Assembly: GCA_964036295.1 (NCBI GenBank)
Contig: OZ038467.1
Span: 13,465,170 to 13,529,169 of the forward strand
Reading direction: 5' to 3'
DNA length: 64,000 nt
From: Plumapathes pennacea
Lineage: Eukaryota; Cnidaria; Anthozoa; Antipatharia; Myriopathidae
The position numbers and the translations under genes were made by a program. The notes under the pieces are model-generated. The model was not told the origin of the DNA. It saw only the letters and a program-made list of their open reading frames with translations, and did not search any database. This document shows, one piece after another, positions 26,508-58,100 of this stretch; position 1 is the stretch's first letter; every line of letters starts with the position of its first letter.

Positions 26508-29500
26508 TCAAGGAATCTGCGGGGTGGACCCAAAATGTCTGATACAGCAGGGCGGGGCACACTGGCGCGAACACCGTTTGGCACATTCCGCGGGGCACTG
26601 GGGTCGGGGAGACCAAGGCTGTTCAAAGGGGCCTGGGTTAGAGAGTCCTGAAGGAAGGTAAGCATGAACGTATTATTTACTTTAGTACACATTAACTTAT
26701 TACAATTGTTACTTATTGACTTAATACGTGTCAACTAAGAGAGCATAATAAGGCACTTCTGTGTTCTCTTGATACGCTAGTATTACTATAAGCTTGTCTG
26801 ATTATCACCGGCTTAGTCCTTACACGCTGTTGGCTTATTCATATTGACTCGTTTCGTATTAACTTATAAATTGGTTCATTGCATATTAACTTATTAATTG
26901 GGATTATTACAGAGGTTCTCAAGGTTCAGAGACCTTGTTAATACTTATCTGTTTTAAGTTGAACAAAACAAGCGTCTGCCCCGTTGTAGCGACAGCGTAT
27001 TGATAGAAATTATAGGCCTTGTAACATTGGAGTGCCAGTACAAGACAAACGTGTATTGGCTATAAACTGAAGCAGTTTCAGTTATTTGTCACATGAGACA
27101 TCAATGTCAAAAGCCGAAGGGTAAATTGTAGCAAACCACGAGGCAATTTTCCTGCAAGTTGTCCTCGCAACGCTGACGACAGTATTGCGAGACAAGTTGC
27201 AAAATACGGGCACACGTTGCAACAAGACCATGCACGCAACGCTGTGAAAAATATAGGACTTTTCGTACAACTTGTCTCGCAATTCTTCGTTGCGTCGCAA
27301 GTTGTAAAGAGGAGGCGTCACAAGCACAATTTTGGCTGCTGCAACTTTTCTTGCAACGTCGCAAGAAAAATTGCGTCGTGTGAAATTCCCGAAGTCCCCG
27401 TCCACACTAATCCGGATAAATTTGAAAACGGGTATTTATTTATCCATTTTGGCCTCCCGTCCACACTGACCGCCGGTCACCAAAACGGAATATTTTCGAA
27501 ACGCTCTCGAAAGTGGATATTTTCGAAAACTCCGGTTTCATGTTGTAGTGTGGACGGCAAAAACGGAGCTTTTCGAAAACGCGCGACGTCATGATGATCT
27601 TGTGATCTCTGTGCGCATGCTCAATTCGAGCATTTAGCGTTTTTGGTCAGTCCAGCGTATTAGTGTGGACAGCGAAAACGGTAGTGTGGACGGAAAACTT
27701 TCGATGCGTTTTCGTGTGAAAACTCCGTTTTCAAATTTATCCGGATTAGTGTGGACGGGACTTAAGACACACTCGTGGTTCTTATTTTGTTTTCCGACCC
27801 TGACATCTCTCGGCAATCGACAACGTGATTGTACCTGAGTCTGCGCAGAATCCCCACGCCTTATCCTTGTCGAAGTTTGCGGTTATCGAACACCACCGGC
27901 GCGTGCCATCCGCGTGCAAAACACATGCATCGTACAATGTGTCTCGAAAGATGAAAGGAAAGCTACAGCAAGGACCTCGTCTGTTCATTACGTCGTATGC
28001 TCGCACACAGCTTCTTTCTTCAAGCATGCACAGCCGGAAAGCAAAAATAGAAAAGCGTAAAAGAGAACTGTTAGAAGTCTTTTCCATCTAAATTTTCAAT
28101 GTTGTTCCTTAACAAAAATGTCTTCCTGATTCTGCGGACTTTGTGAAAGGCAGTGGGCATTAGTGTAACAAGGCTTGGAAGGTAAACTTAATAAATTTCC
28201 ACTGGTTTGCCGTGGTGTGGAATCTTATTTACCACGATTTACGTCATCATGATGACGTAAATTGTGGTAAATAAGAGTCCACACCACGGCAAACCAGTGG
28301 AAATTTGTTTTTTCCACAATATTTAGAAATATACAGGAATGTTCCGTTGTATTTCGCTGCAAAGCGTGACATGCTGGCGTCAGCATCGTTGTCTGGACTC
28401 TTATTTAACACGGTAAATCGACCAATCAGAGAGCGAGAAACTAGTGTGTTGTGGTAAACTTTATAACATACCAGCGCAGGGCGCTTCAATGCATGCTCTG
28501 ATCTCCTGCAGTGGTCCTGTGCAGGTTTTTCCCTCCCGACATGTGCGGGTCCGTTTTTGGACGCCTTGTCCGCAAGAAGTGCTGCAAAGTCCAAACGGGC
28601 TCCATTGCGTCATGTTGCTGTGCTTCCTCCATTGAGAAGCTGTAGTAGACGCCGCGGATTCCATGGCGGCTTCTAACTCGTCTTTTTCGCGTATTGTCTC
28701 GATGGCTAGCGAGAAGTAGAAGTGTTTTTTTTTTTCCGATTCAAGAGATAAAAAGATAGCTTTCGGTAAAGCTTGTGCAACTATACTATGGGTTGTACTT
28801 CTTGCACTGTTCTGCTTTCTTCTATTTACTTGCCCATTGCAGGCATATTTTTCTGTACAAGTTGTGTTGTGCTGTGCTGTGTTGTGTTGTACTGTTCTGT
28901 GTTGTACTGTAAAGTACTGTGCTGTATTGTACATTGCTGTGCTGTGCTGTTCTGTTCTGTACCGTACTGTGCTGTGTTGTGTTGTGCTGTGCTGTACTGT
29001 GTTGTGCTGTATTGTACATTGCTGTGCTGTACTGTACTCTGTGTTGTGCTGTATTGTACATTGCTGTTCTGTTCTGTTCTGTACCGTACTGTGCTGTGTT
29101 GTGATGTACTGTGCTGTGATTTGCCACTATTCTGTCCTACACGTTTCTTGCATCAAGACACCCCGTTTCTAACTGGCAGAGTCAAGTGTGTGAGTATGTA
29201 CCTCTATTAGATAGCTGTCCCTTGTTAGTCAGTGCGACGGTCTTGAACGGCAGGTCGCAGACCTCTGGCTTTACATAGATGGCGTCATTGTTATTCAAAA
29301 GCACCTCGTTGTTCTTCCAATATGCGTCATGCGCATAGAAGATAACCTGGTGGTGTTTCAGGGGATGTTTGAAGACTGTGCGGAGCTTGAAGGAGTCGGC
29401 GGTGATGAGATAGCCCTCTTTCTTTATGTTGGACATGAGCTTGATGGGTCTTTTTATCTTGTTTAAGAACTTCAAACTGATACACTTCTCTGTTGGTTGG

Positions 29501-32500
29501 AAGGAAAGTTCAACAGGTCATCATCAGGCAAAAAAAGCTTGTAGTGTTATCGCTTCCTTCATTTTATTTGGATCCCTGCATGCAACCTTGCTTAATTTCT
29601 CAGGCTACGTATTTCTCTGGCTCCCTTCCATCCATCCTTCCTTCCTTCCTCGCTTCTTCTTTCCTTCGTCACTTTCTACCTATGACACTAACTTTTTCTT
29701 ACTCTCTTCCACTCCTTTGTCCTTCCTTTCAGCAATCACATTTCTCTTACTTACAATGGAGCACACAGGGATCAATTATGTGAAATATCGGTATCAACGG
29801 AACCCACTATTGATGGATAGGGCAGACTCCCAATTTGGAAGTCTAGATTTTTCATGCAGCATAGGTGACATGATTGTGCCTTTTGTTGTGTATTATCATA
29901 ATACCTTTTGTGTCTGATCTTAGTTTTGGGTTCACTGATGTTTCGCTTCCCTTTCTGAAGCCTCTGTACTTATTGAACTGCGGTTTTCCTCCGGGCTGTA
30001 GAGCATGCGCGGCGGACATGACAGAAAAGGCCGAGAGTTGTTCCAAGTGACCACGTGCAGGACCCGCGGAAAACGCTTTGCCGTTTTTCTGGAACGGCTG
30101 TTTAGAGATGGTCAGTGGATATTTTCTCGACTGAACCTGATGATTAAAACCTGCGGTAAAGTGTTGTCTATTGCCATTAATTGGTCTGAACGGCTGGGGA
30201 TGTTTTTGCTGATGAAATGCCGAATTTGCGAATGTGGCAGCTACTTGTGCTGGATGTTGCCATTTTCGTTGTTGTTGTTGTTGTTGTTGTTGTTGGTCAG
30301 GTAGAAATGACTGCTGCAAAAGTGGCCTCCTAATTAATCCTGTCATCTGTTGATGATGTCCTTGTAAGGCTAAGTCGGCATTCATTCTATTGTTATACGA
30401 GGGATATTTCCATCCACCGTTTTTCCGTGTTTGTACCTGAAGACTCTGGCCAACCCTTGCGAACTTTAAATTGGTTGGTTTTGATTGCCTTTGTTGTTGT
30501 GGTGGCTTGAAGTGTCCTCGAACCCCAGTGTTTTTCGTGTTCGTCGTCAATGTCATGCCTGGTTTGAGATTTCCCTTTACAAATGGCGCAGACGCATAGA
30601 TCGAAGTTGGCCCTCTGTTGTTTTTCCCTGACATTTCACTTTGATATGAAACAGAGTTTCCATTTGTATTTTGAAGTGTTACTTTGGGCCCAGCACCGGT
30701 TTGCTGAGGGTGAAAGCTTTTAACGAACTGTGCGGATGCATAGATCGAAGTTGGTGCTGGCATTTCATTTTGATGTGAAGCAGAGTTTCCATTTGCATTT
30801 TGAAATGTTGGTTTGGGCCTTGCATCAGTTAGCCGAGGTTGATACAATCCTTTTACAAACGGTGCAGATGCATAGATCGAAGTTGGTCCTTTGCTGCTGC
30901 TCCTCCCTGGCATTTCACTTTGATATGAAGCAGAATTTCTATTTGCATTTTGAAATGTTGGCTTGGGCCTTGCATCCGTTAGCTGAGGTTGAAACAATCC
31001 TTTTACAAACGGTGCGGACACATAGATCGAAGTTGGTCCTTTGCTGCTCCTCCCTGGCATTTCACTTTGATATGAAGCAGAGTTGCCATTTGTGTTTTGA
31101 TGTGTTAGTTTAGTGCTTGCACCCGTTAGCTGAGGTTGAAACAATCCTTTAATGAATGGTGCAGACGCATAGATCGAAGTTGGTCCTTTGCTGTGATATG
31201 AAGCAGAGTTTCCATTTGCAGTTTGAAGTGCTGGTTTGGGTTGCTGAGCTCCTTGCTGAGCTGTTGAAGGATCCATCTTTGCGTTTTTAGTCTCCGCTCC
31301 TGGCGCTGTAAAACTTCTCGTCTGATTTTGGTGCACAAGTATAATTCCTTTCCTCTCCCCATCATCTCCTGTAAAACCACCAGCAATTAATCAGTCCTAT
31401 TTTAGAATGAATATTTACAGTAAGCTTTATTTCTGCAAATATTACACTCTCGTTGCTTTCCGGCTCAATGGTCGCACAAGAGAACGCATTCTCACACGAG
31501 GCATGTGTCTCTATTCCGAAAGGGTAACAGCTAGAGTAGACTGAACAGTTGTGGCGCCAGTTTTATTCCAGGGTGCATTGAATGCATTTACTAAGACGCT
31601 GTAAATACTCCCTATATATTAGTGACCAAGACAGCCCTCAACATTAGACGGGCTGAAAGGGCCCTGGTTTTCACAAGTGCATCCCACGCGTTTGTTCCTT
31701 ATGTTTTTGCATATGTAGCCACTGTCGCTCTCTTGTGCTTTTGCGCTAATGAAAATGCGCCTTAAAAGCTCGTAATCAAGTTAATATTTGTAGAGCGTTA
31801 AAAGCGTTTTAAAATGCTCTGGGCGAATCCTGGCTTTTTTTTTTTTAACTTACCTTGTGGTTTATGGGCATTTGTTGGATTGTCCGACTCTTTCTTTCTG
31901 ATTCCTGGTTTCTGTACTACAGCCATCATGAACAGGCATTCACTCTGAAATTCTTTGCTTTGCATTCCCAGTTTCTTCGCTTGGAGCCTAAACGGGCGCT
32001 GCGTTTCGTGGCACACAAACCATCCACGATGGTTGAACAATTCCAACGCTATGATGTCTGTGCTTTCTAAGGGATGTCGTTCTAAGAATGTAGCGGCTTT
32101 CTCTGAAGCAAAGAGCGCACGTTAATTTGTAGTTGAATTCAGTAGAAGAATTTTACCGTATTTATTATGTAGAAGTGTCTTCATAGCGAAGTTTAAAGGA
32201 GCCTCTCAACCACAGTCCTTTGCGCGCCGAAAACTTTGATCCGCCATTTTTAGGGCCCCCGAAACTAGAAAAATGAATTGGCAATCCATTTCCATCAAAC
32301 TCGTTTGAGAAGAAGATTAGGTTATTTTTGCCTTGAAGCGTTACCTTCTTATTTTGGTGTTGATTTATTACGTTTTTTCTTTTTTCGTGTTAGGACCAAA
32401 TTTATCCTTCGACATTTTACAATTTTCAAGACGTAAACAAAAACATTGAATTGTCCGAGAGAGCCTGGACGAACCGAGCAGGACGACCAACTCAAAGCTA

Positions 32501-33872
32501 TACACAAAAGGGAACCCGAAATAACGTCGGTGAATTTGACGGCCTAAATCAGCATGTACAGATCATTTACCACACGAAACCAACACTAATGCAATAATAC
32601 ATACCATACATTCCCGTTGGTTGGGCTTTTTCCAAGTAGAACTTGTAATTTTTGTAGCGAAGATAGAAACCAGGCTTGCTTTGAGACTCTAGTGACAGGC
32701 TTCCCTCGACATGCTCAAATCCCGGTCGGCGCAGACGGAATACGTCTACCTGGTTACTCAGGTCTGCTGCGGTGACCTGGGCTCTAATGCCCATTCCAGT
32801 GCTCGGCAAAGCATCTTGTTGCGCGGCGGTATTGCTTAGATGAGCGGGGACTTGGAAGAGCTTCACCAGGGCTTTGATTCGGCCAGCTAAGATATAGGCC
32901 AATATCAGATAGATTAAGATAAACTGTGACATAGACCCTCAGTGATGTTACATCTTGAGGCAATGGTTACACCGCGGGAATCACTCTTTGTTGCTACTCG
33001 TGTATTTTACAGAAAGGAAAGAGTTAGTTTACTAATATTTTTTACTGTAGATTACTCTTACTCAGATGTAGTTCGCGCGGATAATACATTTAAGAGAAAA
33101 CATTGTTCCCAAAGTAGTTTTAACTAAGATGTTTTGACTCTTAAGATCATTCTTAAGTATTAAGTTAATTGGTGCAAATTGGGAATATATATTAACTGCT
33201 TAGAAATTTGGGAAAACGAACCGGCATTTTACTGTTCATGCACGGTCTCTTCATGCGAATGACGGTTTCGGATGCATAAATCGAATGTATCTGACTTTGT
33301 TGTTTTATGTTTTGACTTCAAGAAACGAGCACAAAGCAATGATCCAATGATGCAAAAAAACCTCTTCGGCTCACTATGGCTGTAGTCAGTGTTTAGACAC
33401 GGTTGACGCGCGCGCATTAATCAAGAATAACGTTTCTTTACGCGGCTCATATGTTCGCGAGGAGTGAGTTTTGTGTTACTTCTCGTAATTAGTGTACATT
33501 CTTAACTGATGGGAAAACTAGACTGCGCGCATTCATTCCTTCCTTTGCTTTGATTTCACAATTTTGTTGCGAAAACGAGCTAGGAAAAACTGTTTCTCGT
33601 GCGTTTTAGTTTGTAGACTAAGTTTATGTGGGCATTTGACGGCTAAATGCGGATAATTTGTAAACACTATTCTGCTGTTCTTGAAGGATCACTACACAAC
33701 CGCCATACATGGATTCATTCACAAGCTTGAACAACAGATTAGAACCGATAGCAACTGAATTAGTGTAAAATTAGTGTTGATTATTTTCACCTGGTAAACC
33801 TGTCATTATGGAGACTTGCCACAAAACCACCAGAGATGAGAGAAGAAGGGACTGAACGCTCACTGATGCCAT
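26508..33872 (-). CDS. Modular secreted protein: AbfB, repeats, TSP1, FN2, minicollagen Cys-rich domain (8 exons)
   Basis: Exons in transcript order: 33872-33800, 32886-32605, 32102-31854, 31368-29905, 29489-29202, 28705-28472, 28017-27835, 26647-26508; 970 residues, every intron phase 1. Residues 1-24 are a signal peptide ([18 protein letters not shown]). About 72-190 match an AbfB/CBM42 beta-trefoil ([31 protein letters not shown]). About 264-470 hold five [17 protein letters not shown] repeats, followed by Gln-rich sequence with a Gln run. 690-785 are an unrecognised two-Cys domain. 817-861 are a TSP1 repeat ([14 protein letters not shown]). 880-921 are fibronectin type II ([21 protein letters not shown]). 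Cys 942, 946, 950, 954, 958 and 959 form CX3CX3CX3CX3CC after a Pro-rich stretch, the minicollagen cysteine-rich domain of nematocyst proteins. A capsule-wall or tubule role is inferred from that domain. A shorter form starting at 32932 or stopping at 28461 is possible. Confidence 0.8.
27080..27392. repeat. Repeat rich in 'cgcaagttg/caacttgtctcgcaa', related copy at 35650-35930
   Basis: Direct and inverted copies of ttgcgagacaagttgc-type words fill this interval in the last intron of the modular gene. A related block lies at 35650-35930 in a glutamate-receptor intron. It probably is a decayed non-autonomous transposon. Confidence 0.65.
27393..27765. mobile_element. MITE with terminal inverted repeats 'cgtccacactaatccggata'
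   Basis: The left end (cgtccacactaatccggata then aatttgaaaacgg) is the complement of the right end (ccgttttcaaatttatccgg then attagtgtggacggg). Internal sub-repeats carry gtgtggacgg and ttttcgaaaac words. Non-coding; in the intron between the FN2 and Cys-rich exons. Confidence 0.85.
28193..28306. repeat. Near-perfect 114-bp palindrome
   Basis: The arm aaatttccactggtttgccg (from 28193) and its complement cggcaaaccagtggaaattt (to 28306) meet at tcatcatgatga with only a few mismatches and essentially no loop. It lies in the intron between the TSP1 and FN2 exons and could form a long hairpin in DNA or pre-mRNA. Confidence 0.9.
28858..29120. repeat. Degenerate pentanucleotide (ctgtg/ttgtg/ctgta) tract
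   Basis: Over 250 bp of variants of tgctgtactgtgttg in the intron between the unknown-domain and TSP1 exons. Apparent Cys/Val-rich and Gln/His/Thr-rich open frames here are composition artefacts. Confidence 0.85.
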
Positions 33873-34720: not shown

Positions 34721-37700
34721 CTAGTGAAGAATGATGGTTGTCGTTGAACCCGTGGATGGTGATCTACTTGCCCACGCGGCCGCTATTTGTTCCAGTGCAG
34801 TTCCTTTCCAGAAACTGAAGTGCTGACGATTTCTGGTAATTTTCTTGTGCACTAAAATTTCCAAAGTCAGAATAAAGAAACAGCCGACACAGATTAAAAA
34901 GGTGTTGAACAGAAATCCCCCGAACTCGTCCAAACCCATATTAAATGCATGCGCTGAATGGTTGCCTCGCAACTCGCACCCGATTTTCATCCATCTCTTG
35001 AACACCCTGTCGATCCCGTCCCGAGAGTTCAACTTGTGAATGGCTCTCGAGAACTCGCTCGTCCACGTGGAGTTCTTTGGCAGCGCGAAAGCGAGGCCTG
35101 CCAGATCAAACCGGTTTCCATCCAGTTTTAACCCACAGCTTCCATGCTCCAAGGCTTCGCCCGACAGAGAGGCATCGCTATCGCTAATGAATACTGTCAG
35201 CTCTCTAAAGAAGGAAAAACTTGCATGAGAATCGCTCCGACATGCAGCGACGTTAAAACCGACAAAATCAGGGACGGGTCTGTGTCCGTCCTAGACTGCA
35301 AGTCCCCCCCCCCCCCCCCCCCTTTCCCCTCCAATATCGTATTGCGAAAGCCCAGTCGCTAGCGCAGAAGAGTATGGCGCGCGGAAAATGAGGCGATACA
35401 GAGGGAGAGGCAAAGAAGTCTCGCCTCATTTTCCGCGCGCCATACTTTTCTGCGCTAGCGACTGAGCTCTGGCAATACGATTTTGGAGGGAAAAGGATAG
35501 CTTCAATAAAACGGGAGCTTCTCGTGGGTCTGCTGTCAGGAGGCTAGGAAAAGGAAATGTCCTTCCGTCCAACAGAGAGATAGTTACATAAAGTGTTGGA
35601 GAGACGGGGATAGACAGAAAAAGACAGAAACAGGCACAGAGACAGCATGAATCCATTGTTACAATTTTCCTGCAACTTACAAAGCGACGCTGACGACAGT
35701 ATTAAAAGCACTGTAAGGAGTGCTGTGGGGTCTTAGACGCTCATCAGCTTTCTTGGAACTTGCACGCAACGTTTGTTCTCCTTTCCCTGCAACTTGTCTC
35801 GCAATTTTTGTTGCGGGACAAGATGCAAGGAGGAGGTTACACGCGCAATTTCTTCTGCAACTTGTCTCGCAATGGCGACGCGTTGGAAGTTGCATGAAAA
35901 GTTGTCTCGCGTAACAGAGCCTTCAGATAGATATTGTATGTTCTCACCCAGACTGGACTTTCTTTATTCCTTCTGAATAGCTACCAACGTTCTTCATGTT
36001 GTTGTAGATTCTCTGCAGGTTGGAGTTGTTGCTCCGTTTAAAGAAGCCTTCAACACTTGAATCCCTAACCGTGCCGAACGTAAAGCCTTCTGGAGGACTG
36101 GTAAACTAATAACAAATATTAACATCAGGACTCGGTTACTCAAAGCTCGATTAAGCTAATCTAGGATTAGAAGTCCTTTCCCTCGACCTCTTGGCCATCA
36201 ATTTGCAGAGTTTTGGCCAAGGGTTGGGCGGAAAGTTTTTTCTGGCTCAAAGCATATCTGGAAAGTAGTGCTGAGAGTGAACCCCCCCCCCTCCTCCTTT
36301 TTTTTTGGGAGGGGGGGGGGGAGCTTACTTTAGACCAAATCCAGGATTAGGGCAATCGTTCTTTGAACAGCTGGGTCCGGATCTGCAACTTTCCCGCCAT
36401 CTCCGCACCCGAAGTTCTAACGTGGACATGGGGACCAAGTTGCTAAGTTTGTGTAGTTAGTAAGAAAATCTTACCTTGCGAATAGAGGCGATGCATACTT
36501 AGATTAATCGTCGCACCCACGTTTTACTTTTCTTTTTAGCACCCATGTCGTTTATACATTACCTAAAGTATGGTTTTCACGAGCGACGCAAACGCAAGCA
36601 CAATCACTAGGATCAAATATTTTGATCCTTTGTTTGCGCTTGTGTCGAGCCCGTTTTCATTGTGAAATAAGGACCTTGTGCTTGCGCTCATGCTTCCTTG
36701 CGTCGTTCGTGCAAACCAGGCTTTACCGCGTAAAATAAATGGCGCGAATCTATTAAAACGTAGCGTTTGCTAGAGCGTAAACCTTATCTTGCTAGCCTCG
36801 TTAAACTAAGCCCCTCGGTTTTAGGCGCGCTTTCACGAAAGGAAAGCATGGCACTGCTCAGACAAAAAAACTGGAACGGCTCGGATAATATATCTTTCGT
36901 GTCAACGATACTTATTGGGACGTTGTCCGTGCCACATGTATCCAGAACCATAGACGCGCTTGTAGTACCCGGATAAATACAGGGTGCCGTACCTCCTTTG
37001 ACCGAGCCGTGCCTATTTCTGAACAGTGAAAACGCGCGCTTTTATGATATTTTCTGAGCGAAAATCGATCGCAACTGCAATAGCTTTTCTCACCTTGACA
37101 TCCGCCACACCTGACACAATTGAATTCTCCTCCAGTACGATAAGCGAGACGAGTAAGTTGGCTGTGTAGGAACTGACCAACACTAATGCCCCACAGTTCG
37201 CTATCACCATCACCACCGGCACCGCAAACGTCTTGGCCGAGATTTTAGTCAAAGACACGTGAAAAATATTGCCGAACACGTAAGCAGCGAACTCAAAGGG
37301 CAACAGATAACTGCTCTTGACTTTCCTATAGTGCGTGAACTTTTCCATCAACCAAACGGTCAACGACACCGCGAAAAACGTCGCCACACAAGCGAACCAG
37401 AGCTGCATACTGAACGGCTTCATCAAACGCATATCTCCAATGGACTCAGCAAAAGTGTAGTACTTCCTCTTGTTCGATTTGACGAGAAATGTCAGCGCGG
37501 CTTCTCGGAAAGGTATCGTGAAGTCGACGAACTTCGTGCGCTCTTCGGTGATTGTTATCAGTCCGATTGCCAAGTCGGCTTCGCGTCTAGTTAAGTCGCC
37601 GATCATTCCGTTCATCTTTCGCTCATCGGGACCGTACGAGCCGTACTTGCCGTCCTTGACAAGAAACAAGGTAAACGTGAAGCCAGACAGTCGTTGCATC

Positions 37701-40654
37701 TTCAACAAAATGTCAATCCCAGCTCCGTAACAACACAGCAGAGAATGCGGCTTCTCGTCGTGGATCAGAAGCGTGGAATTCACGAACTTAGTGCACAAGA
37801 CGCTAGTGTCCGGACAGGTCGCGCCTGTCTTACCGCTGTACACTGGAGGACGGACCATCGTGAACGCCTCGTGCTCGATCGTAACGATTCTTAAGTGGCG
37901 CGGCTGCGGCAAGTCACGTGGTAGGAAGGTCTCAAAAAGCCGGGGGCTCGCGCGTGGGTCCCATCTGGTGGTGGTGCTACCAACCCTGCGCCAGTGTGTG
38001 CGCTTGCCGAGGGGCGTCATAACTTTTGAAATGATGAACTTGTAGGTGGTTCGCTCCCCGTGGGTGTTGAACTCGATTGGACCCGTCTTGCCGTCGTGTG
38101 AGCCGCTCAGAATTTCTCTGCAGCAACAAAATGTACAGCACAGAAGAGCTTAGTCATTGGTCAGATGAATGGCTCGCGGATTTTGGCGTACGGGATTCCC
38201 TGTCGTTTGGGAGTTGAACTGACCGCATAGTTTGTAACACGAAAACGAGGTGGGGCGCATTATGTGAAAAAAAAAAAAAAAAAACAGTTTCGTGATTTAC
38301 AGCTGATAAAAATGACAGCAATTTAGTAAAACGACGATCATGCACAAGTAATGTTGCACACAAAGGACGCGTTTCGCCCAATTGCCCGAACCTTGGCATT
38401 TGCCCTGAACATATGCAGTTTACATACACTTCTTCCACATACCTGTACAGATGACGCTTAAAGGAGACAAAGGGTTCTATCTGAGGACACTTCAAACACA
38501 TGGAGGACTTGATATTCAAAGTCGTGGCTAACGCGTCCTCGATCACTTGAACTGAATCGCGCAAAAGATGTTCCATCAGTAAATGCTCATTCTCGGAATG
38601 TCGATCATAGGTTCCTCCAGGCAACTGCAGCTTCGAAATACCGATGGAACCATCTGGAAACTCGTCAGCGTCGTTGTGTTTTGCTTGATCTGAAAAAATC
38701 CACACAAAATCGTCCGCGAGACGTTTCAAGTTCAACTGCTGAGCGACGAATAGAATCGTTTTGCTTTCTTCTGGCGGGCAGTGAACCACAATGACTTTGA
38801 CGCCACTCGCCGAAATCGCTGCCAGAGTAGCATAGACCTCACGATATTCTTGAATGACGAAACAACGAGGCTCAGCATTGGTACTCACGTAACGAAACAT
38901 TTGCCTCCAAAGCGCGTCGCCCTTGGCATCGTTTGTTGTGATACAGGCGAATCTACTTTGCTCATATTCGAGTAAGAGATCTTTGATGACCCTTGCTTGC
39001 AAGGCTTCTGGGGGTCGTATTGATACATACATGCTTTTCTGGTGGTGGCAGCAGATAGAGAAAATAAGGTGTTGTTAAACCTTCATCTTAGTCAAAAACC
39101 CTTTAATTGGGGACTTTCTTATCCATTATCAAAAATATATATACATAGTGGCGCGCGGGATTTTAAGTGGACTCGTATTGACCAACAGCAATCATTTGCA
39201 AGCGCTTCTGACGTTTTTTTCTCTATTTTGATGGTCCTCAAAAATTGCAAGGTACTTTACTTTCCCTTGTTTGAGGATTTGACATGAAGCTGCAGTAATT
39301 TGCGTAAGCATGTTTGTTATCGATTCTTCGTGATGCATATGAGTGAGAAGTGAACCAGTTTTGGACCTTTCAAACACGTTCCCGTATTTGGTAAACAAAA
39401 ACATTGGATCTCTACGATGCGAGCCCACTCAAATACTGTGTAACTTTAATTTGTTTAAGTCGCGAAACCGCTCTTCCTGTTGTGCAAGTTTGCTTGTCTC
39501 AACAGAAAACCAAATAGTGGTCCGCCTCAAAAACATCTGTCCTGCAAACTCTATTTACATATTGAGAGCCTTTTTGTAAAGGGAAGTTTGGACAACAAGG
39601 GAAAGACTAAATTATTTAGGCTCTTTTTTTAGGAGACGACAATGCTTTTTCTTGTTTGTCAGTGTTCCGTTTACGAAATGTTTTTAACCGAGGCTAGTCG
39701 TTTTTCCAACAATTCAGTCGTATAAGGCTGTTATCATGCGGTGAAAAAGAAAACCTGCCTTTTTGAGTAAACACAGCTTAGCATATACATATTCCTTGAA
39801 TGTTCAATAGAAACACCGGGAGAAAGAGCAGAATAAAGCCTTTTAAAGTTGGGTAAATAAAGAGAGGATGCACCACAAGCCTATACTGAAGAGACAATGA
39901 TAAGGAGAGGTTGATATTCTGCTGGTTCTAGTGATATATAATTAGACGGTGTCTATAAACAGATATGTTACTGTGCGACGGTTTGAAGCGCGGAAATGCT
40001 TGATCTAAAATCATAATTTTCACCATATCTTTAACAATAAAAGCAGCTGACATAAACACACCACAGCCATGAAAAATAGCCTTGCGCAACTTATTTTGCA
40101 ATATGTGAGGTTATAATTTGAATAAAAACGACGAAACGTTGTTTAGTTAATAGCTGTTACCCATCCTCCCTAAATCAATATTATGGTGTATAGTTGAACT
40201 AAGTTACGAAGGATAAATATAAAAAGTCCCTTACTTCCAGTGCTGTGTTCCATTGGTGAACCTCAGTGTCAATCCCGATGACAGGAATTGATGCGTCACT
40301 CAGCAGAACCAGCAGAAGTTGATTCTGCGATGAAGGAAGAAAGCTGATAACTGCGGTGACATTCAAATCAATTAGATTTTGAATCCCTGACCACAGTTCG
40401 AATAAAGATTGATTTCCGCTTTGCTCCCAGATCAGCATGACTGCCTTGAGTTGAGCTGGAATAACATTGCTAACATTGAGAAGTGTTTCAAAAATTCTCT
40501 GAAGCTCGGAGGACTGATTCTTGGGCGGCAAAACTAGGCATATTCTTACTGTTGGCGTCGAGTCTTTAGTTGTATCCACTCTTTGCAGTACGAGGAAACA
40601 AAGAGTCAACTTCAAGCAAGCTTGCAAAGGAAACGACGATCTTGTGGGCGACAT
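34721..40654 (-). CDS. Ionotropic glutamate receptor, NMDA-receptor-like, 5 exons
   Basis: A ligand-gated cation channel of the plasma membrane. Exons in transcript order: 40654-40235, 39038-38443, 38117-37094, 36105-35948, 35204-34721; 893 residues, all phases consistent. It has a signal peptide (ACLKLTLCFLVLQ), an amino-terminal domain in exons 1-2, and S1 with TITEERTKFVDFTIPFRE, whose Arg should bind the ligand carboxylate. M1 is MQLWFACVATFFAVSLTVW; the pore loop and M3 end SSYTANLLVSL. S2 carries FTFGTVRDSSVEGFFKRS, SGELTVFISDSD and the paired Cys of HGSCGLKL and MKIGCE. M4 is FNTFLICVGCFFILTLEIL and the tail is short. The FGTVRxSS block and disulphide resemble GluN1/GluN3, so an NMDA-type, perhaps glycine-binding, receptor is likely. 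The pore loop departs from the family: Ser aligns with the Q/R/N site, and Leu-Val replaces Ala-Ala after SYTANL. Confidence 0.88.
35321..35496. mobile_element. Foldback element with ~75-bp arms
   Basis: Left arm: ccctccaatatcgtattgcg, then cagtcgctagcgcagaagag and tatggcgcgcggaaaatgag. The right arm is the near-exact complement ending gcaatacgattttggaggga. The loop is about 25 bp. It lies in the receptor intron before the last exon and is preceded by a C run at 35304-35322. Confidence 0.88.
36570..36722. mobile_element. Small MITE-like element
   Basis: Ends tggttttcacgagcgacgca and tgcgtcgttcgtgcaaacca are inverted repeats, with internal tgcgcttgtg and gcaagcaca words. About 150 bp, non-coding, in a receptor intron. 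Confidence 0.7.
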
Positions 40655-41693
40655 CTCTCCAATTCTTCCCGGTTTAGTTTGTCTAAAACAATATTCCTTC
40701 CCGGAGAGGCGAATTTGAACCAAGTGCAAGAGGGCGTGGTTTAGAAGTTGGTTTCTTGACGATTTGTATAATTACGAGCATGTGATGATCTAAACAAACC
40801 GGCTACATGTGTGTAGTTGTCTCCTTCGATTTTCTTCGATTCACTGCCGGGATTTTTGCTGTACTAATGCTCGAATTGTTCGATTTTTCCAGGTTCAGTG
40901 CTGATGAGAGAGCGAACGCACGGACAGTGGTGACGAAGTAACGCGTGGAATCGTTAACTGGACGCGACTGCTGGCAGGTGTGGCAACAAAGCTTTGTCTA
41001 CCCAGTGGTAATAATCAGTCAGTTGAAAACACATGGACAGCCTCACCGCCCATTAATTTTATTGAAACGTCTCTCGCTGACTGATTTCCGTTCCATAGTT
41101 TTTTCAATAGCAATTGAAATTATCATAAGATATACAATCTATTTCAAGTCAGAAAAGCCACACAAAGGTTTTAACTATTAATTAGTCAAGAAAAATTGCG
41201 TCTTGATTTTCGAATCCAGGGTTATTTTACTAATTTATTTTTTAGGTTCTTTTTTCGAGAATGTAATCAGGATTTTTCTTTTTTGCCGCAAGCCAGACGT
41301 ATACTGGAAAATATTCATAATTAAAGACCGGTAAACTGCGAGACAGGCAGACTTCATTCGACGGCCTGAGCAATAATTATTTCTGAAGAGTGTTTAATTT
41401 ATAAGGTTAAAATTAGAATATACAGTAGCCGGATCTCCTGTCTGAGAAACTTCACGTACACTACAGAAAAGGCTTCTAGCTGAGGTATGGAATTTGGAAA
41501 CTCTACTTGCTAGTGAACTCTTTAATTGTGCATTTTACTTTCGATAGAGGCACTAATTGTCCATTTTGATGACGTCACCTTACCGCTTTTACACGTAGCC
41601 GGAGGGGGAGTAGGCTGGGGAGATACTGGCGTCAAGCGAGGCTACCAAGGCTTTGTCCAAAATAATCAGAACACAAACGACAGTTTTCTGATT
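40655..41693. other. Divergent promoter region, glutamate receptor (-) / VPS37 (+)
   Basis: About 1 kb between two start codons on opposite strands. No domain-bearing frame; it should hold both promoters and first-exon leaders. No distinct element recognised. Confidence 0.45.
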
Positions 41694-45144: not shown

Positions 45145-45840
45145 TTATTTCTTCTCTCGACTGGTATTCTTCACTCTCCTCTCCAACACAAGGACTACAA
45201 CAACAGTCAGACAAAACACACTCAGAATGACCCATCTCTGAGATCCAACTTGAAGTTTCTGAGAATTCCTCTCGCGTTCCTCATCAGCTCTTTCTCTCAT
45301 TGATCTCTGCTTCCTTTTCAAAGCTTCGAAGTAATGTTGTTTTGTCCATTCATCAAAGTCATAAATGCTTCCCGAAGGTTTTGGAGGAGCAGGATCAAGA
45401 CTAATTTCACCACTAACAATCAGCCCTCTATCATACTGCTTCCTGAGGTCATGGTTTCCAAGAATTGAGTAGGCTTCCGTAATTTCTTGGAACGTATCAT
45501 GTGCTTTCTCGCTCCCCTTGTGTTTGTCTGGATGGTGTTTCATAGACTGTTTGTAATAGGCGTCCTTGATTTGCGATTGGGTTGCTTTCGATGACACTGC
45601 CAGGATTTTGTAGTAGTTCTTTCTGTTCGTTTTTGTAGCTGTGCTGTAGCTGCGAGCCTTCATCGACTGCAATAAAATGCTGGCGTTATCAGGAGCTCCT
45701 GGACCAAAACGTCGACAAGCACCCAGATCAACAAAATATGAAAAAGGTTGTCTTCTTGATGCCACTGATGCTTGCTCACTACGTCTGGCACATGCTAATG
45801 CGGTTTGCGTATAGGACATCGTAAATCTCCGCATTTTCAT
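45145..45840 (-). CDS. DNAJC30: DNAJC30-like mitochondrial J-domain protein, intronless
   Basis: DNAJC30 is a mitochondrial inner-membrane J protein linked to ATP synthase and complex I maintenance. This single exon encodes 231 residues, close to the human length. Residues 1-70 are Arg/Ser-rich without acidic runs, as expected of a mitochondrial presequence. The J domain (about 74-140) has YYKILAVSSKATQSQIKDAY, the HPD catalytic motif (SMKHHPDKHKG), FQEITEAYSILG and LRKQYDRGL. Downstream, SIYDFDEWTKQHYFEALKRK matches the conserved DNAJC30 middle, and WVILSVFCLTVVVVLVLE is a C-terminal membrane segment. The start is the first of several nearby Met; a start at the second or third (MRR or MSY) is possible. 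Head-to-head with BUD23. Confidence 0.9.
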   Translation of the reverse strand: MKMRRFTMSYTQTALACARRSEQASVASRRQPFSYFVDLGACRRFGPGAPDNASILLQSMKARSYSTATKTNRKNYYKILAVSSKATQSQIKDAYYKQSMKHHPDKHKGSEKAHDTFQEITEAYSILGNHDLRKQYDRGLIVSGEISLDPAPPKPSGSIYDFDEWTKQHYFEALKRKQRSMRERADEERERNSQKLQVGSQRWVILSVFCLTVVVVLVLERRVKNTSREKK

Positions 45841-47519
45841 ACGAGATTTACATGAACATGAACATGAACATGAACACTCCTGTTGCAGAACTCTTCTGGG
45901 TACGAGATTGACACTTCATTTAAGACAAAATATAAGGGCTTTAGCCCGCGCAAGCTTTTTTGAGGGTGATCGCAGACCGCAAACTTTCTTTCCAAGATGG
46001 GAAGCGAATTCCCACGTTAGGATGGTTACCCCCCCCCCCCCCCCCCCCCGCAGTCTGATTATATTATGTCAGTGGTCGCCCCACTGTATTAATAACTAAC
46101 CAAACGTGAAGCAGCGGTAATTTTCGCGCGTTGTTATGGTTTCTTTCTAGTTGCCGTTTTCTGTGTTCGTGTTAGGTAGCATCGCTCCAAAATGTAGATA
46201 AAAAAGGATGATTTGTGAATGACTCGTTACCAGCTTCCCGCAGAGGTTCACCTCAGTCCCCTCGGGGAAATGGGGACCAGCAACATTAAGCAACATGTTC
46301 TCGAGGCAAACTTTAACGAATACAATGAAATACTATCTGACAATGGCATTCACTGATATAGAGAAAATTAATCCCATTCCGTGCGTAACCTGGTAACTAC
46401 CCTCCAGCAAAGAAAATGGCGTCTACAACGGGAAGCGAATTGCGTAAGGATGGTTACCCCCTCCCGCAGTCTGATTATATTATGTCACACTGGTCAATTT
46501 GCAACGATGCGATGTTGCGCTAAAAATCGTTGAGGTGTAACACCCCATTGCGAACGATTTTTCGCGATGTTTGCAGTGCTGCAACGCGTTGCAAGTTTTT
46601 GAAAGCGATTCAAAAACTTGCAACGCCGTTGCGTGGATTTGGAGCAAATCGGCGTTGAAAATAGCTTTAGGCGAAGCACTAACATCCAAGTGAACCATTC
46701 CCGGCGATAATTCAGTTGTTGCGACTAACTCGAGCCTTGTAAAAAATGAAATCAAGTTTCTACAGCAAAACCCGCGCGATGTCCGCATCGAAAGAGATTT
46801 AAGGCTACTGCTTTTTAGGGACCACGTCGAACTGTTCATATGGGACGGTTTAGCAAGCTAGCCGTTAAAGGCTCTACCCCCCAAAACCTCTTCTCGGGGG
46901 GAGGGGGAGGGGGTGAAAACCTTCATAGTTTTGAGTCCGAGTGTTCTCAAAACCCTTGCCCTACTTCAAACTAAAACTGTACGATTTTTCGACCCTATTT
47001 AAAAATATATATTTGAGATTTTTTGACCCATTTTCAGACTGTATACCAAAAAAAGTTTTACCCTATTTCTGCAACCAAATACCAAAATATGCAAAATCTA
47101 CTATTTCAGACCAAAAAGGCAAATTGATCCCCTTTTGCAGCCTCAAAAATGTTAAAAAACGATACTACCTTTGAGGCGGCGCACTGAGTATTGATGGGAC
47201 CCTCCCCTCCCACCTCCGGGATATTTTTCTCTGATTCACGTTGATTTTACACGATTTTTCACTAAATTTACACGAAGCGTCAATTTTCTATAAAAGAGTA
47301 TTGTATGAACGTTTCAAATAAAACGCTTTAGGAACTTAGATATTTTATACTTTACGTCTTTCTTCGTACACGCTATTTCACTCCGATGTGACGTTTATTT
47401 TATATCACTGCACTTCTGTCAGTCAGTTATTACTGTTGAGGGGCGACCGCTGACATAATATAATCAGACTGCGGGAGGGGGTAACCATCCTTACGTGGGA
47501 ATTCGCTTCCCCTTCCAAG
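45841..47519. promoter_or_regulatory. Bidirectional promoter region, DNAJC30 (-) / BUD23 (+), with repeats
   Basis: 1.7 kb between divergent starts. It contains three copies, one inverted, of a segment marked ggaagcgaatt, aggatggttaccccc and gcagtctgattatattatgt: 45986-46082, about 46418-46495, and inverted 47442-47514 directly against the BUD23 start. It also holds a C run (46029-46049), a copy of the 23070 repeat (46490-46665) and the 'ccctatttcagacc' family (46870-47215). Confidence 0.6.
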
Positions 47520-52433: not shown

Positions 52434-55132
52434 ACAGGTTTCAAACGGGTTTCAAACAGGTTCCAAATATGGGCAGCTGAGTTAAATTTGCTGACTTCAA
52501 GGTGGAAAGGATGACATAGTAACATAACAAAGTGCTCAAGTGGAATTAATATTATAAATATTTGCAATCACACGGCTGAGCTCTGCTTGCAGTCCTTTCA
52601 GTTGCACCGAGAAGGAAGTGTGTTGAATCGGAATCATGCAGGAAAACACTGGAGGAAATGTGGGCGTATCCGTCGTTTACAGAATTAAATTGTGACAAGA
52701 ATGGGCCGCCGATCAAGGCGCGTACGGTGCAGGGAGTGGTGTAATACTGATGACAATGGAACGTTTCCTGTTATTTCTCCAGACAGAGAGACAGCCAGGG
52801 AATTGAGAAAATATGCCAACTGTCCAGAAAACATCTGACTGAGTTATGTGGATTAATGGCCATCACTCACAACATGCAGGACGATGCCGCCCCTGTGCGG
52901 GCCGAGTATGTTATGGGTCCGGAGTGCAAGCATTTTATCCCCGAGCTCCGCGAGAGTAATAATCACGACGCTAATGCTGTAGTATTGCGCTATTTGGAGA
53001 TTCCAAGCGGGTTGCCATCTCGAAATCTAATGTTTGTGTGTCAGTCAGTCTGGCGTACGACCTCCAGGCGAGGTTGCTAAGCCGTTTATTGAATTTGAGA
53101 AACTATAAAGCACCGATGGAAGTGGTTTTATACAAGATGTTGGTACAAGGCCAAGCAGTTCGACGGACGGCTATAAACGTCCCGGATATTTTGCCATGAC
53201 TGACACACGAACATTAAATTTCGGGATGGCGACCCGCTTGGAGCTAAACCTAGCTAAAAGATCATGCTTTAATCTAAATGGAAGCACTTCGTTACACTTG
53301 ATTTGGTCACAGAATAAGATGTTTATTTAATAAAAGTGATACGTCAATTTGATATACTGTATATCTATAATCTATAAGGGGTCGGGGAACTAGCAAACAA
53401 AACCAATACATACCATAAGTCACGCTGGCATGAAGGTATGTTGCTTTTGCGAATAAAAATTCACAGGGTACACACATCTTCGTAAAGGTTGAGCTGGCTT
53501 CATCTGGATCAGGACAAGGGGATATCCGCGAATATCGTATTTCTAGTAATATAATAATGGCCCTGTGTGGTGTGTTTCGATGCTGGGTAACAGCATAATG
53601 TAGACTGAGCCGGAACACGCCCGCCTATTTTTTTAGAATTTGCAAGTTATAACTTCGCAATGTAAAATAACGTTGCTCGAAAACTTCCTATGTTATACTT
53701 TGAAGTTCTCTGTCAATCTATGGTATTGCTTTTGAGTTTTAAAATACCCTTGTGCAGGACTATTAAACCGTCATTGCAGCTCGTAGTTTTGTTTTGTCGT
53801 TTTATACGCGTCTGTATTATCTAAAGCTACGTTATGGGTTTGTTCTCGATTCGTCTCTCGTGACCCCCCGCGAAGAGTGCGTTTGCCGTCGGTGATACAT
53901 CGTGCTCTTTATGCTTTCTTTAATTTCGGTCAAAATTTACCAAGGGAATACTCAGCTATATATTCGTAATTAAAGATCAGGGTCCGATTGTTCAAGTCCA
54001 ATTAATCCAGGACTAGCCAAAATCTTTCCCTGGACTTCTTTGCCAAATAACTGTAAGGGTTTCGTTCAAAACCCAACTAAAAAACTACGACTAAAAGCTT
54101 CTGTTAGCTCCAAACGTTTCAAGGAAGCCGAAGACTAACGAAACATTCCCTTCAGGCTTAAGAACGTTTAGGCTTAATCCAGGATTCGGGCCAAATCATG
54201 CTTTGAACAACCGCGCCCAGGGTCAAGTTCAAGCATATGTCCATTCACATTCGGGCTTCAGTGACGTCATAAAATCCATAGCCATACAAAGCTGACGCAA
54301 AGATAATTTCTAAGCGTTAAATAATTTAAGCCTCAAGGCAAAATTCTGGGTCGAAAGAAACCCATCAGCTACGGACGCTCGAACTTTGTGAAGGCAAATG
54401 TCGTTGTAAATATTTCGGTCAGCTATTCTGAGAAACTAATAAATTGAGATGTACTATTTTTATTTTCTGCGTTGGGTGGGTGATTTGTAGACTGGACGTG
54501 ATAATCATGAGATTATCTTTTTCTAGAACATTCTGCTACAGAAAGTCCAATCCAATATATGTAAATATATTTTTTACGAGTTTAAAAAATGTGTCAGATT
54601 GCTGTTTGTCGGCGAGTAATCAAACGAAAATTGATAAAAAAAAAGTTTTCCCCTGTCAGCATATGGATATTCCTTGGGAGCAACTTTCCGTACTCTTAAG
54701 TGTCATCAAAAAGGGTAAGAAAGCAATACCAAGAGCAAATTCATCGGTTTCGCTCAAAAAACTCAGTAAACCACATGAGATCTGAATGACGTCACTTAGT
54801 CAATGTTGCGGAATAGTTTGCTGGTCTGGCAATTTTCAGCTGCGCAAAGAACACATTCACTCAAAATACGGCATGTCTAGCCAACTAACGATGTTGATCG
54901 TTAAAACGAATAAATAAACCTCAACTGTGGTTTGGTGTTTGCTTTTTTTTTCTGGAGCTATACAGCGGGGGATGAATCATTGTCATTGTTGGAATAACAA
55001 TGTCATGTGATCACTTCCCCAGGCCCCCGGGGACCGCTCATGAATTAAAAATTTGGCGGACATTTGTTTGTGATTATGCTACGAACGTAAACCGTTTGTT
55101 GCTCCAATAATCCAGGAGAGTTGTCTAACACA
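52434..55132. other. Intergenic BUD23 / MYO18
   Basis: Holds the BUD23 3' UTR, an inverted repeat of about 45 bp (around 53001-53050 with 53195-53245), a repeat with tccaggat/atccagga ends (about 53985-54230), and the myosin promoter. A frame at about 52800-53080 has a faint HIRAN-like block (RESNNHDANAVVL) and may be a decayed gene fragment. No intact gene seen. Confidence 0.45.
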
Positions 55133-58100
55133 ATGTTTTCCTTCAAGAGGAAGGACAAGGACAGAGCGGGAAGCAAAGAGGAGAAACGTGAAAGAAGGAA
55201 AAAAGAGAAAGATGGAAAAGAAAAACAGAAACAGGAGAAGCGAGTGGACCATCTTTCCGACATTGTGGCTGGGTTTGAGAGCGAGGACAAGAAAGGAGGT
55301 CGTTTTAGCTTTAGGAGAAGTGACAAGCGTAAATATGATATGGATCAAGGATTTGAGGAAACGTCTGCTCCTGCAGTGGTGAAAATGGACTATGGAAGTG
55401 ATATTCGTTCTGATAGCTCGGAAAGTGCAAGCAACGGACCTTCACCATACTCTGGTTCTTCAGCGAGTGTGAACTCCAATTCGAGTTTTAAGGGAAGGCA
55501 ACAACATCCAGAAACGAGGGCTTACGAGGACGATAGATACGAAGTGCCTTCGCATAACGGCAATGGCTATACGAATTCTAATCGCCCTGATGATAGAAAT
55601 AGGCCTGTTCCAGCTCCAAGACGCAAGAAGAGTGCGAGCATAGAAATCAAACTACGTAAGGGAACCGACTCGCCAAGTTCACGAACCGGGGAAAACCTCG
55701 TGGAATACGGCAGTGATGAGATGGTGGAAGCACCGAATTACTCCAAACCTTACGAAGAACGAAGGATATCGGCTTCAACCAAACAAACTGATATTGGCGA
55801 TCGAACCGCTGCAAGTGCGAAACCCCATCGCGTTCAAGCCAATCGAGAGAGTGGAGTCGTTGAACTGAAACTTATCAACGCCGGTAGCAAACACGAGAAA
55901 ACTCCGCCCACCGCAGAGATCGATAGGTCAATAGTCGTTTCTTCGATAGTCACTGATAATTTCGCACCACCACCAGAAGAAAATATGGACGATTTCAAGC
56001 CGAGCCTTGTGATACCTCCGCAAGGAGCTGCCATTCCTATCAACGTGATCTCGCCGACAGAGAAGACCTTTGATGAGATGGGAGTTGATTTAAAGCTTCC
56101 AGAAATGAGGCCGGCAACACCAGGAATAGCTAGAGTCATTCGCATGAAGCGAAGAGCGAGTGGAGATTTTGGATTTGCGTTGCGTAGATCTACATCTCCC
56201 GGAGGGAGGACTGTTCATTTTGTTGAACCTGTGGGACCGGGTTCAGACACCGGGTTACTGCCAGGCGATCGTTTGATCGAAGTGAACGGCACAAATATCG
56301 AAAGTGAAGATCGAGAGAAAATCATCGAAATGATCGCCATGTCGGGGAATGAAGTGATGATCAAAGTTATTCCTGTGCCAGAGTTGTCGGAGTTAAGCGT
56401 TCGCAGTGGACTCGATGGTTCCACTGTTCAGCTGGACGAATCTAATGTCCGCGCTGGAACTCTTGCTCGAAGTGGCAGCAAGCGAATGAAGAAGAAGGTA
56501 AGTTTGAGCTAGACTTTATTCAAACAAAGTTAAACGCGAGTTTAATGTATTTATATAATCTCATTAGAAAAGCAGCGCCCATCCCGAAGCTTCCGGTCAG
56601 TTATTTGGCTGTTTTGTTTATCACGTACCCCCGCTGTGTAGCTGTATTAAGTAGTTTTTGCTTTCCATCGTACAGATATATGTACAGCACAGTATTCTTA
56701 TTTCGTGATGTTTGGTGATTCCATGCGAATCTAGTATTTCTGTCGTCATATTGCATTTTTGCCCTTTGTTGTAGAGTTTATATTTTAGGCATCTGTGTAT
56801 GTATGTGTGGTCATCCATACCATTGGGACTATACATAAAATATACATTGTTCACATAAGCTTGGCATAATGCATTTAATTATAATGATGTAACTTGCAGT
56901 GTCCGAAGTTGTTTTGGAATTGTACGAATGTATCAAGTACATGTATAGTTTTGTTTGCTAAATTTGTCAGTAATGTGACGACTGTTTCTCTGTTTCTACA
57001 AACTATTTTTGCTTTTCATATTAAGATTGTTGTATGATACTTTTGAGTGCGTTACAGTGTGGAACATTCTTTTGATCTTTTTGATGTTTAGGCATACTGT
57101 TCATTTCCTTGATGGACCATGGCACTGTTGAAAATAGTTTGACAAATGCTGATACTTTTTTCGAGGGAACCACTGCCATATTAATTTCTTATATATTTTC
57201 ACAGCTTTGTATGGTCTGCACATTTTACATATTTATAAGTTTAAATGCTTTGTTGAAGCTGGTTCTCATAGGTCAACAGATGTTCCTTCTCAATGTTGTT
57301 TATTTTACAAAATTAATTATCTTAGACTCAAGATCAACAGTCTAAATTCCTGAGAAATGTTTTCACTTGTGAAGCAGAACCATACAGTAAAATGTGTGGT
57401 TTATACAAGGAATTATTTTAGTGCTGAATCCTGAAAAGGAAAGTGCAAATCTGAATTCATCCTTCCAATTTTGGTGAAATAAATGTTTGCAGTACATTGT
57501 CAATGAGGAATTCTGTATTATATGTCAGGTGCCACACTGGAGTATATTTAGCTTTACTCAGATCTGAGTACAGTATGTGACAATTTGGTCATCAGCTTTA
57601 CCAAACATTTAGCCCTGCTATGTTCATTCTGGTATTCAGAAATGCAAATAATCCTTGCTGTCATTATATTGCTTTAGTGATAATCTCATTGGCAACATTG
57701 GTTTTCAGTTTTGCAGGAGGTTTCTATGATGTGCACTGCAGTAAAAATAGAAAAGTTCATAAGGAAATAGATAAAATACTGCAGTAGAATCCTGATAACT
57801 TGAACCCTTGATAACTCAAACCTCGTGATACAGTATCTCAAACCAAAAGTCAACATTTCTCTTTGATTTGCTAATGCTGTAATTTTACTCTCGATAACTT
57901 GAACCAATTTTTGTTACCTTTGGAGGTTAGAGTTATTTGGCACTATATACTATAAAGAGGTTATTACACGGGAAGGAGTGCAATACGGCGGAGTATTTTT
58001 ACAAGTCAGTTTTATTTTTTCGAGCCTGCTTCAGGCGAGAAAAAATAAAACTGATGAGTAAAAATACAGCCGTATTGCACGACTTTTCATGTAATAAATT

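Follow-up and report, generated by a model that had tools for sequence, protein, structure and literature searches.

A gene on the minus strand (33872-26508) of a 64,000-nucleotide stretch of the antipatharian Plumapathes pennacea (GenBank assembly GCA_964036295.1, contig OZ038467.1, positions 13,465,170 to 13,529,169; in the following called the window) appears to encode a secreted protein of several modules, which ends in a minicollagen-type cysteine-rich domain (CRD) and is probably a structural component of the cnidocyst, i.e., of the wall, tube or matrix of a stinging or sticky capsule. A sequence-only reading had proposed a new capsule or tubule protein; what it observed was confirmed, and its interpretation was partly supported. 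The gene does not stand alone: at least eight genes of this genome, itself included, pair the module AbfB, a domain encoded by exon 5 (E5) and CRD-type motifs. No description of this protein was found among the literature matches listed, a coverage without most subscription papers, which agrees with the earlier statement that no described protein with this order of modules was known.

Gene model and terminal cysteine-rich domain

The gene model consists of eight exons, which join 973 codons with 0 internal stops; all seven introns are bounded by GT-AG and all seven are in phase 1. The exons and the CRD are as follows:

33791..33872, minus strand: exon 1, start codon and hydrophobic leader (27 residues)
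32605..32886, minus strand: exon 2, first part of AbfB, a CBM42-type beta-trefoil (Pfam PF05270, 1.3e-9, 38.7 bits versus a cut-off of 22.8; PDB 3akf, 1.5e-9)
31854..32102, minus strand: exon 3, second part of AbfB, joined in phase 1
29905..31368, minus strand: exon 4, long low-complexity Q-rich spacer with five PTSIY repeats
29202..29489, minus strand: exon 5 (E5), all-beta domain (predicted) of no Pfam family
28472..28705, minus strand: exon 6, thrombospondin type-1 repeat (TSP1; PF00090, 1.9e-8)
27835..28017, minus strand: exon 7, fibronectin type II domain (FN2; PF00040, 4.1e-14)
26508..26647, minus strand: exon 8, Pro-rich lead, minicollagen-type CRD and stop codon (TGA, 26508-26510)
26544..26597, minus strand: CRD proper (18 residues)

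The end of exon 1 at 33791 gives ...MTGLPAGRIK, in agreement with LPA(G/S) in the leaders of orthologs; the Pfam run of the window protein was carried out with a model of 970 amino acids, which is three residues short at this exon end. The hydrophobic leader precedes AbfB, as had been stated, and is from its sequence a probable signal peptide. The AbfB-like trefoil, TSP1 and FN2 of the earlier reading all exceeded Pfam cut-offs, and a family profile of FN2, when compared with the PDB, matched MMP-9, MMP-2 and fibronectin.

The last exon, which translates into a final stretch of 43 residues and a stop, is entered in phase 1 after the FN2 exon. The exact pattern CX3CX3CX3CX3CC reported for it was found, and this strict motif occurs once in the window, with 1.9e-4 occurrences expected (six frames of 64 kb, triplet frequencies). 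The Pro-rich lead which had been noted before the CRD is present but modest (5 Pro in 17 residues). A looser cysteine pattern matched the plus strand of the window four times, in every case at 28863-29030 within a TGTGC repeat, and these matches are low complexity; another plus-strand count gave 11 matches, nine of which fall in the repeat. The repeat, a TGTGC-type tandem array of 256 bp at 28863-29118 in the intron between exons 5 and 6, yields spurious Cys-rich frames on the plus strand. When a profile of five CRDs of the family was compared with 177,635 distinct PDB sequences, two matches were obtained at E<=10, both of them minicollagen CRDs (1SP7, E 0.083; 1SOP, E 0.099). The 18-residue CRD, used as a query, had 0 matches in the genome, which reflects only the limit of such a search.

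The tail of the window protein is very probably a genuine minicollagen-type CRD, since all eight genes in which E5 was found carry a CRD-type motif and since the variant spacing in some of them is printed for the capsule protein CPP-1. The signal from the non-cysteine positions is weak, and absent for the window; the assignment rests therefore on spacing, exon position, orthologs and paralogs.

Orthologs, paralogs and the E5 domain

Used as a protein query, the spliced model matched P0002 of Montipora foliosa (99% of the query aligned, 32% identity). From its C-terminal part Stylophora LOC111335454, Exaiptasia LOC110252396 and Actinia LOC116301362 were obtained, and an alignment of these four orthologs led to Nematostella LOC5506570. 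All five full-length orthologs are database gene models, annotated as uncharacterized, and all come from hexacorals. Each has AbfB, TSP1 and FN2 over the Pfam cut-offs, the same order of modules, the strict CRD at its end (6/6 with the window protein) and all six tail cysteines unchanged. The phase-1 joining of the CRD exon to the FN2 and TSP1 exons, as first described, is supported by GT-AG sites and by this common order. Overall, the tail of the window protein is 25-29% identical to those of four compared orthologs; for Montipora or Stylophora against Exaiptasia or Actinia the values are 21-28%. E5 is the best-kept part, with 48-64% identity between the window and four orthologs. The exon 4 spacer, at 17-21% identity to the same number of orthologs, is not conserved; the five PTSIY repeats, which are indeed present (147-bp tandem unit at 30757-31193), belong therefore to Plumapathes pennacea and not to the protein family. 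Three further proteins were not counted as orthologs: P0007 and P0008 are fragments which end before the tail, and P0009 has AbfB alone in common. The protein searches require shared words of five residues, and the first one scored only 7,996 candidates; that no relatives were found outside Hexacorallia is therefore weak evidence of their absence.

The window lies on contig C6 of the 290-Mb genome. E5 was detected at no fewer than eight places (E up to 0.01), namely in the window and in seven tandem copies on contig C11, at 3.96-4.04 Mb. All seven C11 copies have AbfB upstream on the same strand (hidden Markov models from six proteins), which makes 8/8 with the window; the AbfB match is weak in two of them (domain E 0.003 and 1e-4). 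A CRD-type motif follows downstream in all eight genes, strict in three and variant in five. The two C11 genes with strict motifs, A and B, continue as FN2-FN2-five strict CRDs-FN2; E5 and FN2 of gene A are separated by a polyproline frame, and the CRDs of gene B are joined by Pro-rich linkers. In ten exons examined from both, a candidate phase-1 acceptor was present in nine and a candidate phase-1 donor in six; the CRD exon of gene B is entered in phase 1, and for that of gene A no acceptor was returned under the filter used. In the five other genes a short exon, entered in phase 1, lies 1.2-1.9 kb below E5; it has the spacing CX3CX5CX3CX3CC, and its stop follows 5-8 codons past the last cysteines. 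In 120 kb of C11, a narrow cysteine pattern that includes the variant matched the minus strand 16 times and the plus strand not once, and it had 0 matches in 40 simulated sequences; as the pattern was drawn up after its C11 matches were known, the strand count is a description and not a blind test. A looser pattern had nine plus-strand matches on C11, in Ser/Cys-rich (low-complexity) or overlapping frames. In a tree of E5 sequences the window and the five orthologs were separated from the C11 set by one branch (99/98); long branches were flagged, and the placement within each side is unsure.

Some other loci were considered. Gene C on C11 (AbfB at 4057 kb, a Q-rich frame, TSP1 at 4051 kb and a ShK frame at 4052 kb) showed neither E5 nor a CRD. 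Two more AbfB matches, at C6:7.43 Mb, are without E5 and without a CRD-type motif in the 7 kb read; AbfB alone is therefore no mark of the family. The five variant-CRD genes and gene A (C11:3976-4043 kb, minus strand) have Gly/Ala-rich, silk-like frames before AbfB. Farther upstream on C11, three frames resemble PA14 by eye; one of these was compared with Pfam and gave no match at E<=0.1.

E5, listed at the outset as an unknown domain, belongs indeed to no Pfam family and is predicted to be all-beta, but it is probably VHL-beta-like, in so far as its model resembles the VHL beta domain with moderate support. Its identity to the VHL beta domain is 10-16%. With 12 copies of E5 two families were listed at E<=10, neither of them PF01847 (VHL), in a search where HMMER filters drop most weak matches. 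The E5 sequence profile found nothing in the PDB (best E 0.11, an unrelated hydrolase), and the AlphaFold full-length model of the Nematostella ortholog was uninformative, with a predicted local distance difference test (pLDDT) value of 28. From the VHL beta domain the window protein differs by its apparently secreted context, and no VHL alpha domain was seen in it.

Comparison with capsule proteins and alternative explanations

CRDs have been described as the units through which capsule proteins are cross-linked by disulfides (PMC4863159, PMC4321713, PMC6910907), and few capsule proteins with a CRD are named in the passages cited here: minicollagens, NOWA, cnidoin and CPP-1. With the minicollagens the window protein shares the terminal CX3CX3CX3CX3CC, but it lacks their Gly-X-Y run of about 12-16 triplets, the N-terminal CRD, the polyproline flanks and Pro11; it is not a minicollagen, because it has no Gly-X-Y run and one CRD. 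NOWA is described as a C-type lectin with eight C-terminal CRDs, which passes into the tube as this invaginates and for which the chondroitin of the tube is a possible ligand (PMC10014300). In outline its design is the same, i.e., a sugar-binding-type domain with a C-terminal CRD and probable disulfide polymerisation; the parts, however, are others. In the window protein and its five orthologs there is no Pfam match to a C-type lectin domain, for which reason the protein is not a NOWA, and one CRD stands against eight, with AbfB, E5, TSP1 and FN2 modules instead. Paralogs A and B, with five CRDs each, come closer to NOWA than the window protein does. CPP-1 and cnidoin are similar in that CRDs are placed on a non-collagen core, and the N-terminal CRD peptide of CPP-1, a capsule-wall protein of Hydra, has the spacing CX3CX5CX3CX3CC (PMC6910907) found here in five paralogs; they differ by a polyproline or silk-like core and by CRDs at both ends, and the passages cited mention no adhesive modules. 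Nematogalectin is a link between minicollagens and glycans (PMC9205923). The main text of an anemone matrisome paper (PMC12549020) does not mention AbfB or FN2, and none of six terms sought occur in PMC13345560. AbfB itself matches CBM42 modules (PDB 3akf, 3kmv) over the curated cut-off, but LRH of the solved modules is LRY in the first repeat of all six members, some pocket residues are changed, and Pfam indicated no enzyme domain. The comparison suggests a CRD-anchored, lectin-like candidate capsule protein made from different modules, which would be part of a larger CRD family.

Secretion, expression in cnidocytes, cross-linking and ligands of the window protein are inferred. The leader would send it into the secretory pathway and hence, if the cell is a cnidocyte, into the vesicle of the growing capsule, where the CRD would take part in the disulfide exchange by which minicollagens, NOWA, cnidoin and CPP-1 are linked, and the protein would become anchored. 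AbfB (sugar-binding-type), the VHL-beta-like E5, TSP1 and FN2, held on a long flexible spacer, would grip glycans and collagen-like chains; by analogy with NOWA and nematogalectin the protein would serve as a tether, with the CRD in the polymer and the other modules directed toward such partners. If this is true, a conserved family in which this clasp is attached to modules for the binding of sugar, collagen and matrix would account for the way other materials are incorporated into the capsule or tube. Named genes, e.g., LOC5506570 of Nematostella, where knock-downs are feasible, would then be at hand for studies on the assembly of hexacoral cnidae, sticky ones included. Among the eight genes of this one genome the CRD occurs in a terminal exon, in arrays and in a form with changed spacing. 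A bolder and decidedly speculative extension would regard the hexacoral family of AbfB, E5 and CRD as two-grip cross-linkers of the cnidocyst: the CRD would enter the minicollagen network covalently, the VHL-beta-like domain (a hydroxyproline-reading fold) together with FN2 would hold hydroxyproline-rich minicollagen or polyproline, and tandem duplication (seven copies on C11) would have diversified the proteins for capsule types including the spirocyst.

Several observations weigh against a capsule protein. The window protein has a single CRD and no Gly-X-Y stretch; the longest run is 2, and 1-4 in the five orthologs. The Asp of an AbfB repeat in the orthologs (EKDATF/EKDSTF) is Ala in the window (EKAATF). 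Outside the cysteines, the window CRD is at random level: 30% of random peptides with the same cysteine frame score as high, the corresponding shares being 21% for Montipora, 10% for Exaiptasia, 7% for Stylophora, 3.5% for Actinia and 3.3% for Nematostella (scoring table of 25 peptides, i.e., 1SP7 and 24 genome matches, one poly-Cys artefact kept in). The window CRD is without Pro14 and has Arg in place of Pro11, a residue called conserved in the minicollagen CRD (PMC4863159). Pro11 is kept in Exaiptasia, Actinia and Nematostella, is absent also from Montipora and Stylophora, and occurs in 12 of the 25 peptides of the table; its loss in a coral-like line is the simplest reading, and apart from its cysteines the CRD of the window appears to be a derived form. 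Finally, diverse nematocyst proteins are said to share a conserved Lys-Arg end of the pro-peptide (PMC4321713); this was present within the first 110 residues in only two of six members (Exaiptasia and Actinia) and was therefore not used as a nematocyst mark.

The weak signal at non-cysteine positions would also fit an ordinary protein of the extracellular matrix, of mucus or of glue, produced by epithelium or gland cells, in which the tail with its six cysteines would be a small knot of disulfides similar to a CRD; TSP1, FN2 and lectin-like modules are characteristic of proteins of the matrix. This appears rather unlikely, since the exact cysteine spacing is present in all six full-length members, two paralogs of the same genome have tandem CRDs and Pro-rich linkers, and the PDB profile search matched minicollagens only. 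Far less probable still, to the point of being nearly negligible, is a mis-join, in which exon 26508-26647 would come from another transcript and the FN2 exon would end elsewhere. Exons 7 and 8 are indeed separated by an intron of 1.2 kb, which contains an inverted-repeat element (27397-27759), but FN2 is followed by the CRD tail in five database gene models, the splice sites are GT-AG and in phase, and the CRD exon is entered in phase 1 also in the five genes with variant CRDs and in gene B.

A cnidocyst component remains the preferred explanation, and the type of capsule may be considered. Spirocysts are sticky and are not known outside Hexacorallia. As a narrower form of the cnidocyst reading, the protein could be an adhesive or structural component of this anthozoan capsule and not of a penetrant nematocyst, with the CRD fastening adhesive modules to the thin wall or the tube of the spirocyst; this is a serious but less probable alternative. 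In its favor are the adhesion-type modules and the hexacoral origin of all five full-length relatives, although the search by five-residue words may have missed relatives in octocorals or medusozoans. Spirocysts have been called anthozoan-specific, with NvNCol-3 and -4 common to them and other capsules (PMC3145756), and spirocytes have a minicollagen set of their own (PMC12549020).

Other elements in the window and the genome

Two elements that resemble miniature inverted-repeat transposable elements are located in introns beside exon 7: that at 27397-27759 has perfect inverted repeats of 35 bp, 293 nt apart, and that at 28190-28309 is a palindrome of 2 x 60 nt with 95% complementarity. Directly upstream of the gene, at 34721-40771 (minus strand), frames resemble an ionotropic glutamate receptor; a DnaJ-type protein at 45145-45915 (minus strand) and a PDZ-like frame similar to myosin XVIII at 55091-56512 (plus strand) were likewise recognized by eye.

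Elsewhere in the genome, one open frame at C10:2706090-2707019 (plus strand) contains six strict CRDs and a near-match; it follows closely on a row of EGF-like frames (2697-2704 kb), of which Pfam confirmed one and the others were seen by eye, and is apparently part of another modular CRD protein. The two frames below it had no convincing Pfam family. At C1:5410-5419 kb (plus strand) a cluster of minicollagen-like frames was found, with Pro11 in all seven strict CRDs listed and with Pro/Tyr-rich or Lys-Pro-Ala repeats beside some of the CRDs.

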